Part shown: positions 42,009 to 44,609 of the stretch, piece after piece
Layout: the number at the start of each line of letters is the position of its first letter
Numbering within the stretch: the stretch's first letter is position 1
From: Phycisphaerales bacterium
GTDB lineage: Bacteria; Bacteroidota; Bacteroidia; Chitinophagales; Chitinophagaceae
Reading direction: 5' to 3'
Assembly (NCBI GenBank): GCA_030054025.1
Contig: JASGCQ010000011.1
Coordinates: 1-44,609, forward strand
Length of the DNA: 44,609 bases
Position numbers and translations under genes: made by a program
Notes under the pieces: generated by a model
What the model saw: only the letters and a program-made list of their open reading frames with translations
Databases searched by the model: none
What the model was told of the DNA's origin: nothing

Positions 42009-42298
42009 TCTTTAGGGTGAATAGGTGATGAGCGTAAAACAGACAAAACTACTAAATAATTCAAGAAGCTAGTAGCTGCTTGCTTAAAAAGCCTCTAAAC
42101 TTCATTATTTTGAGTTTGAGACAAAAAACGAGAAGGTTACAGGCCTACGAAAGCCAAAATTATAGCAATTTATTGTTTTATCAACGAGGTATTAAAAAAC
42201 AATGACCCATCAAGAAGATTTACGTTGTAGGATTTCGGATAGCAAACCGCTAACATAAATTATTTTCACACTCCCGATTACAGCAATAAACTTGCGCC

Positions 42299-42467
42299 TC
42301 AATCCCAATCGCCTTCTTCTGTTGCGCTATTTTTCTGCGCATATTCTAAAAATTTTCTGTGTGCAGGTAATAGGTGCAACAAGAATGATTTGACCAGAGC
42401 GATTCTGATTTTCTACGAAATAGTTTCTCCAGCTCCTTGGCAGAAGGGATAGGGCTGAAGTCAATTA
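42299..42467 (-). pseudogene. Decayed fragment of an unidentified gene
   Basis: Two overlapping minus-strand frames read as plausible protein once a one-base shift is allowed near 42400. Only about 55 residues remain, with no start codon and no recognised domain. It was called because the two frames join smoothly and the last one ends in an ordinary stop. Confidence 0.35.
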
Positions 42468-42625
42468 GGTACAAAATAATTATCTAATTGGTGTTGTTTA
42501 TCAAAAATGATTATATATAAATATAGTATTTTATATATGCTTGCACTGGATAGGCCTTAACAGAAAAATAATATCGGGAAAATAACGAATCTCGGAAAAG
42601 CTGCGTACTTTTAGTATAATTTCCC

Positions 42626-42675
42626 AAACCAAACCAAACCAAACCAAACCAAACCAAACCAAACCAAACCAAACC
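42626..42675 (+). repeat. Ten perfect AAACC units upstream of the FG-GAP gene
   Basis: A pentanucleotide microsatellite of ten exact AAACC copies ends 14 bp before the ATG at 42690. A TAA (42687-42689) stands in frame directly before that ATG, so the repeat cannot be inside the coding frame. A change in copy number would alter promoter spacing or the 5' leader in 5-bp steps, not the frame. The same tract read on the minus strand makes an apparent VWFGL-repeat open frame, which is an artefact. Confidence 0.95.
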
Positions 42676-42689
42676 AAAAATGAAATTAA

Positions 42690-44609
42690 ATGAAACGATA
42701 CTACCTATTTTTACTGCTACCCTTAGCAGGCTACACTCCCGCCACAGCCCAGTATGGTGCTTGTACAACCGTAGATTATATCCAAGCTCCAAGTTTAACA
42801 AGCAGCAGCCTTGGCGATGGCTTCGGTGCTAAAACGGTCATCAGTGCCGATGGCAATACTTTGGCTGTGGGCAATAAAAACGAAAGTCGCTCGGGAACGG
42901 GCGTCAATCCAGCAGTTACGGGCTCTGTTGCAGGAGCTGGTGCTGTCTTTGTTTATACCCGTGCCGATAGTTTGAGCATCTGGGTAGTCCAAGCCTACAT
43001 CAAAGCCTCCAATACGGGAACGTCCGATCTTTTTGGTGCTTCAGTAGCATTAAGTGCCGATGGCACTACCTTAGCGGTAGGCGCCTATGGCGAAGCTGGC
43101 AACGGAACGGGTATTAATCCTGCGAATAATAATTTAGCCGCCGGTGCAGGCGCAGTCTATATCTATACCCGTAGTGGCAGTACTTGGAGCTTTACCCATT
43201 ATATCAAAGCTTCCAATACAAATTCCGGCGATAATTTTGGAATCTCCGTATCCCTGAGCGGCGATGCTACTACCTTAGTGGTAGGTGCCTACAACGAAGA
43301 TGGCAGCGGCACCGGTATTAATCCTGCGGATAATAATTCCGCCGGCGGTGCAGGTGCTGCCTATATCTATACCCGCAGTGGCAGCACTTGGAGCTTTACA
43401 GACTATATCAAAGCCTCCAATACGGGAAGCATCGATAATTTTGGAGGTGTCGTATCCCTAAGCAGCGATGCGACTACCTTAGCGGTAAGTGCCTATCTCG
43501 AATCAGGAAGCGGCAAGGGTATTAATCCTGCGGATAACGATTCCGCCAGCTATTCAGGGGCGGTCTATACCTATACCCGTAGTGGCAGTACTTGGTCTTT
43601 TAGTGCTTATATCAAAGCGTCCAATACGAGTTCCTTCGATTTTTTTGGAAACGCTCTATCCCTAAGCAGCGATGGCACTACCTTAGCGGTAGGATCCAGT
43701 AGCGAAGCGGGCAGCGGCAAGGGTATTAATCCTGCGGATAATGATTCTGCCGGCGGTGCAGGGGCGGTCTATATCTATACCCGTAGTGGCAGCACTTGGA
43801 TCTTTACAGACTATATCAAAGCTTCCAATACGGATGCCAATGATAATTTTGGATACTCCCTATCCCTAAGCAGCGATGGTACTAGCTTAGCGGTAGGTGC
43901 CTGGAACGAAGATGGTAGCGGCAGGGGTATCAATCCTGCCGACAACAATTTGTCCTCGGCTAGCGGTGCCGCCTACCTTTTTAAACGCACGGCAGGGCTT
44001 TGGGCTCAAAATGCCTATATCAAAGCACCGATAAACGCAGCAAATGATTATTTTGGCTCAAGCATTAGCCTGAGTGCTAATGGAGCCAATTGGGTCATTG
44101 GTGCCGCTGGCGACAAAAGTTCAGGCCTAGGGGTCAATCCGGTCAAAAACAGTTCGGGTACTCAATATGGTGCCGTATGGGTCTATAACCAATACGGAGT
44201 TACCATACCCCGACTAACCACCGATGGTACCGTCAATAAGGCAACTATCTGTGCAGCACCGCTGTACATCTATCTGAAAGATACTAGCGATAAGAGCGCA
44301 CGTAGAGCTATAGCCCGCATCTTCAAAAATGCTAATTCCTTTACTGTGGATAGTGCTTTTGTAGATGCTAGCAATACGGGTACTTACCTCGCTACCGGCG
44401 CTGGGCAAAGCACCCAACTGATGCGCAGAATGCTCAGTATCCATACGACACCTGCTTCGGGGCTAACCGTAAACGGCGGTCCTATTGTCCGCTTCTACTA
44501 CGATACGAGCGAAAAAAACACACAAATCCCTACTGCCACTTATCCTACCCAAGTTTGGTTCAAGCATCCGAACGACAAGGCGAGTACTTTGTCCGATTTG
44601 GTGTATAAT
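42690..44609 (+). CDS. Secreted FG-GAP/propeller surface protein, 3' end beyond the window
   Basis: The frame is open for 640 codons to the window end. A signal peptide (MKRYYLFLLLPLAGYTPATAQ) is followed by seven repeats that begin with YIQA or YIKA at residues 30, 103, 171, 239, 307, 375 and 443. From the second repeat the period is 68 residues (204 bp). Each contains a D-x-FG, then SLSxDGTTLAVGA, a Gly-rich GINPADN and AGAVYIYTRSG. This is an FG-GAP/integrin-alpha-like pattern, and seven repeats would form a seven-bladed propeller. A different domain starts at about residue 512 (ATICAAPLYIYLKD). The sorting signal would lie beyond the window. Its start is the first ATG after an in-frame TAA; the ATG at 42680 opens only a 50-codon frame. 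Confidence 0.85.
   Translation, partial: MKRYYLFLLLPLAGYTPATAQYGACTTVDYIQAPSLTSSSLGDGFGAKTVISADGNTLAVGNKNESRSGTGVNPAVTGSVAGAGAVFVYTRADSLSIWVVQAYIKASNTGTSDLFGASVALSADGTTLAVGAYGEAGNGTGINPANNNLAAGAGAVYIYTRSGSTWSFTHYIKASNTNSGDNFGISVSLSGDATTLVVGAYNEDGSGTGINPADNNSAGGAGAAYIYTRSGSTWSFTDYIKASNTGSIDNFGGVVSLSSDATTLAVSAYLESGSGKGINPADNDSASYSGAVYTYTRSGSTWSFSAYIKASNTSSFDFFGNALSLSSDGTTLAVGSSSEAGSGKGINPADNDSAGGAGAVYIYTRSGSTWIFTDYIKASNTDANDNFGYSLSLSSDGTSLAVGAWNEDGSGRGINPADNNLSSASGAAYLFKRTAGLWAQNAYIKAPINAANDYFGSSISLSANGANWVIGAAGDKSSGLGVNPVKNSSGTQYGAVWVYNQYGVTIPRLTTDGTVNKATICAAPLYIYLKDTSDKSARRAIARIFKNANSFTVDSAFVDASNTGTYLATGAGQSTQLMRRMLSIHTTPASGLTVNGGPIVRFYYDTSEKNTQIPTATYPTQVWFKHPNDKASTLSDLVYN

Follow-up and report, generated by a model that had tools for sequence, protein, structure and literature searches.

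The start of one gene for a putatively exported beta-propeller protein is preceded by a perfect pentanucleotide tract whose length is real and far beyond chance. Our preferred reading, to which we give about an even chance, is that this is a microsatellite of recent expansion and probably unstable length, located in the 5' untranslated region (5'UTR) of a single copy of the propeller family, and that any effect on expression would be graded. Neutral expansion is a serious rival to such a rheostat.

A unique tract beside a start codon

In the window (the whole stretch of 44,609 nucleotides analysed here), Tandem Repeats Finder (TRF) reports eleven uninterrupted CCAAA units over 55 bp, with 100% matches and a score of 110. 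Read in the AAACC register, the tract contains ten units at 42626-42675, the last of them 14 bp 5' of the ATG at 42690, so that the repeat, its gap and the in-frame TAA described in a first-pass annotation of this DNA are all as it had given them. The spacer between the tract end and the ATG is 11 bp. On the CCAAA strand the tract consists of A and C only, with no T. The features at this end of the window are as follows.

42624..42678, + strand: (CCAAA)x11 perfect pentanucleotide tract, from TRF; no second such tract in 2.05 of 2.49 Mb of the genome
42680..42682, + strand: out-of-frame ATG abutting the tract end; its frame is open until a stop at 42830 and overlaps the propeller gene
42687..42689, + strand: TAA, in frame and immediately 5' of the propeller-gene ATG, from sequence reading
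42690..44609, + strand: FG-GAP_2 beta-propeller gene with signal peptide; 640-codon open frame truncated by the contig end

Chance can be excluded as the source of the tract because the longest period-5 runs in 8 simulated genomes of 2.05 Mb, generated with an order-3 Markov model, stop at 15-17 bp. In the 2.05 of 2.49 Mb (82%) of the genome that was read, there is no other pentanucleotide run of at least 18 bp and no other perfect tract of period 2 to period 10 longer than 26 bp, and a probe of three units plus CC has a single match in the whole genome, the tract itself. The species is represented by one assembly, and no match to the tract was found in other genomes of the family.

The propeller gene and its paralogues

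The product of the gene contains 4 stretches of PF14312 (FG-GAP_2) and, judged by eye, an N-terminal signal peptide. A structure model built from two sequences, of low overall confidence (mean pLDDT 58, pTM 0.70), has approximately 28 strands in its first 501 residues, and the top Foldseek matches are integrin-alpha propellers; the earlier description of a secreted propeller gene is thus borne out by signal peptide, domain and best fold match alike. The gene leaves the contig at 44609, and its C-terminus lies outside the sequence. Its putative export by the type IX secretion system (T9SS) is read from the intact paralogue C1, the one copy in which a type A T9SS sorting domain was seen, at the C-terminus.

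The family has seven members in this genome, the window copy and six other copies or fragments (C1, C19, C38, C40, C66 and C87). All but one of the seven are cut off by contig ends, and the remaining copy begins 210 bp from one, a location expected for a repeated gene that breaks the assembly. At the opposite end of the window, positions 1-200 are 91.5% identical to 1884-2083, which places this end, too, within a repeat. Judged from its codons, the gene in the window has not decayed, because its frame is open and its dN/dS is like that of its paralogues: the value is 0.44 against C1 and 0.44-0.57 against all other full copies, as compared with 0.60-0.64 among those other copies, with all pairs spanning 0.44-0.64. 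No close orthologue was found in six genomes of the genus, including its own (the best was a 28% partial match), and no relatives of the protein were found among viral contigs.

The tract is absent upstream of all six other propeller copies, so that the similar tracts which the first-pass annotation proposed to look for before other FG-GAP genes of the genome are missing there, and it is also lacking in a related gene of Flavobacterium sp. MAG17. These absences reject a family-wide tract, and a general role for the propeller family is excluded because one copy alone carries the repeat. The leaders of the six paralogues and the MAG17 relative are otherwise alike, and those of the paralogues have CAAACTC or CAAACTT followed by A-runs just 5' of the ATG. 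On C1, the terminator and promoter region of the propeller copy are repeated 3' of the gene (L010:2520-2800), a trace of tandem duplication, and GCACTTCACGCTTGAATTCAGC recurs twice on that contig before a gene resembling ribosomal protein S1.

The upstream region and the probable leader

Among the genes of this genome, the Bacteroidota -7 box TAnnTTTG is strongly enriched 20-50 nt 5' of the ATG relative to the reversed motif, and a -7 box lies 30-44 nt before the ATG in the six other propeller copies and the MAG17 relative. Upstream of the tract, the following features were recognized.

42413..42522, + strand: stretch homologous to the C66 upstream region (Smith-Waterman 58 vs a shuffle maximum of 26; blastn 71% over 103 bp, E 2e-7)
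42523..42623, + strand: unique sequence holding both candidate -7 boxes, without a blastn match elsewhere in 2.05 Mb
42536..42543, + strand: candidate -7 box TATGCTTG, with the best upstream score in a position weight matrix (PWM), 2.5 bits, which is weak; predicted transcription start site (TSS) about 42548-42549
42606..42613, + strand: second candidate -7 box TACTTTTA, PWM 1.6 bits; predicted TSS about 42618-42619

Both scores are no better than typical background, the reversed-control median being 1.6 bits and the gene median 6.0 bits, and TACTTTTA has A in place of the consensus G. The candidate TATGCTTG is supported also by homology, because the distance from the homologous stretch to the box is nearly equal in the two copies (by direct reading, 13 nt in the window, 12 nt in C66) and CAC stands directly after the box in each, as it does in C1, C87, C40 and C19. 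A mobile origin of 42523-42623 was rejected, as the 82% of the genome that was read contains no second copy. Farther upstream, 42057-42413 is made up of two families of dispersed intergenic repeats (at roughly 42057-42242 and roughly 42246-42413), copies of which, at 78-89% identity, occur at several other places in the genome; they have no Rfam match.

In F. johnsoniae the -7 box is separated from the TSS by 4-5 nt (PMC6847099). The predicted leader of the window gene is about 141 nt if it starts from TATGCTTG or about 71 nt from TACTTTTA; the reported average is 33 nt in F. johnsoniae (PMC6847099), and the medians for F. psychrophilum and B. thetaiotaomicron are 24-32 nt (PMC9723704). The tract most probably belongs to the leader RNA, with a start that we infer from the candidate boxes, since these boxes lie upstream, the tract is T-free and 11 bp separate it from the ATG. 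No -7 box can form inside the tract, because it has no T.

The weakness of both sigma-A matches could instead point to a promoter of another type near or overlapping the tract, which would then be a DNA element (a spacer or a protein-binding array) and not leader RNA. F. psychrophilum uses other sigma motifs at about 7% of starts (PMC9723704), and the repeats of Haemophilus hmwA are located in the promoter, with mRNA falling as their number rises (PMC2424069). However, given the 11 bp to the ATG and the T-less tract, a box downstream would leave almost no leader, and we consider this arrangement extremely unlikely.

The same weak matches bear on neutral expansion, under which slippage would have acted on a C/A-rich leader motif in a copy with a decayed promoter, so that length may vary while expression is unaffected. 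This is quite possible, although we lean against it. The window scores are low beside those of C1, C38, C19 and C87 (12-21 bits), a unit-like motif is present in the paralogue leaders described above, and the other propeller copies are without upstream repeats. Yet C66 and C40 also score low (6.4 and 4.8 bits) and have a recognizable box, so that a low score is no proof of decay; moreover, the window gene is open and constrained, and the AAACC unit recurs at the starts of exported-protein genes in two other genomes.

Possible routes from unit number to expression

The coding route can be rejected, as the first-pass annotation had already concluded: none of the three frames that cross the tract has an ATG, GTG or TTG 5' of it. 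That annotation had instead pointed to promoter spacing, ribosome access or leader structure. A change in promoter spacing fails under the sigma-A model, with both candidate -7 boxes 5' of the tract and none 3' of it. In the folding predictions, the tract is more than 84% unpaired in every case. With the long leader, opening the region from -15 to +15 costs 2.09 kcal/mol at 6 units and 1.68 kcal/mol at 20, and with the short one it costs 1.40 kcal/mol at both numbers; the sole large step, from 7.0 to 2.8 kcal/mol, is predicted between 0 and 2 units with the long leader. A structure switch by unit number is not supported by these models, because predicted accessibility hardly changes from 6 to 20 units, and the leader-structure route is weakly supported at best, the shift in opening energy over that range being about 0.4 kcal/mol or less. 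Such flatness of predicted accessibility also favors neutral expansion. An invertible promoter was rejected on the finding of no inverted repeats of at least 12 bp in 42009-42700, and a known RNA element on that of no Rfam match in the window.

With frame, spacing and inversion rejected and structure weakly supported at best, the remaining options are graded tuning, either by the length of the leader or by a bound protein, and the absence of any effect. These results weigh directly on true on/off phase variation of the propeller gene, the idea from which the first-pass annotation set out. A surface or secreted product and a long perfect tract adjoining the start codon speak for it, and in other phyla genes of this kind are commonly switched by simple sequence repeats (SSRs) (PMC7302503, PMC2424069); but there is no coding route, promoter spacing is unaffected and the predicted accessibility of the start site levels off after about 2-6 units, so that an on/off switch through the tract is unlikely.

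Under the graded reading that we prefer, the tract would follow a weak sigma-A promoter, with its -7 box at 42536 or 42606, and precede the start codon, contributing 55 nt of A/C-only, non-folding RNA to the leader. Strand slippage, we infer, would gain or lose units and so shift leader length in 5-nt steps, while leaving frame, promoter and start codon untouched. The resulting effect on expression would be graded and might be exerted through translation initiation, mRNA stability or termination, as with the uspA2 AGAT tract of Moraxella. A more specific form of this idea, which we regard as very unlikely, would make the tract a repeat-counted RNA element, recurrent at exported-protein genes of Bacteroidota, in which C-rich, G-free, unstructured RNA would load an RNA-binding protein (for example Rho or ribosomal protein S1) and slippage would set output stepwise. 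As a separate observation, this 2.5 Mb genome has two genes for the termination factor Rho (G000:C77:852-2702 and G000:C46:9737-11347), both above the family cut-off.

Comparison with known systems

The closest anatomical parallels are found at uspA1 and uspA2 of Moraxella catarrhalis, where tracts between promoter and start codon alter expression (PMC4679880, PMC7302503). Like the uspA2 AGAT and uspA1 poly-G tracts, the window tract is a short-unit repeat at a surface-protein gene, perfect, non-coding, and located between a candidate promoter, itself weakly supported, and the start codon. The systems differ in unit, phylum and type of start site (Bacteroidota, with no Shine-Dalgarno sequence); furthermore, both length variation and expression change were measured for uspA1 and uspA2 (PMC4679880, PMC7302503), whereas the window tract is known from its sequence. 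By analogy, it would at most work like uspA2. The 7-bp repeats of Haemophilus influenzae hmwA are likewise non-coding and upstream of an exported adhesin, with graded control, but they are described as promoter repeats, whereas the window tract is 3' of the predicted -7 boxes.

Start codons are also closely preceded by short direct repeats, in the form of TAACTGA, in Beggiatoaceae, Cyanobacteria and some Bacteroidetes, for which a translational action has been proposed (PMC4679880); these occur as many sets of one heptamer per genome, in contrast to the one locus and different unit of the window. Finally, translational contingency loci have, as does the window, a long perfect SSR where an exported-protein gene begins. 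In those loci the SSR lies inside the open reading frame (ORF), as it does with the AAACC unit in one genome described below, whereas the window tract is outside any translated frame.

Bacteroidota are known more for their invertible promoters. Should the tract both vary and tune expression, it would provide a case of slippage-driven, leader-level variation in this phylum. In that event the leader, being free of a Shine-Dalgarno sequence, would also allow a clean test of the response to length alone, for which the tract-free paralogues, with mostly common coding sequence, constitute natural controls.

Other AAACC tracts and long repeats

A search of Bacteroidota genomes with a five-unit AAACC probe led to two further loci that were read. 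In G385:C22 (L182, reverse strand), eight CCAAA units come after ATG-TTA-TAC-AAA and before the hydrophobic segment of a lipoprotein signal (LATSC). The putative lipoprotein frame is open at 5, 8 and 11 units and meets an early stop at 6, 7, 9 and 10, which, on this reading of the frame, is a classical frame-switch contingency design. In G607:C67 (L187, reverse strand), the ATG of a signal-peptide-like frame is located 83 nt downstream of six CCAAA units; this frame appears to be out of register with the long ORF behind it, owing either to a frameshift or to misassembly. In both of these genomes, as in that of the window, CCAAA is read on the coding strand. The recurrence of AAACC near the 5' ends of exported-protein genes is suggestive, as a set of three cases with no statistic. 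A four-unit probe gave three further loci, in G1034, G1130 and G972.

Long mononucleotide runs were also noted in the genome of the window. The longest C runs in the 2.05 Mb read are a C14 tract at L120:9729-9742, 115 nt before an ORF resembling isocitrate dehydrogenase, and a C12 tract at L054:130-141. A signal-peptide gene (MKKLLLSTALFLCAMASKAQ) starts 72 nt downstream of an A14/T14 tract at L126:7173-7186.
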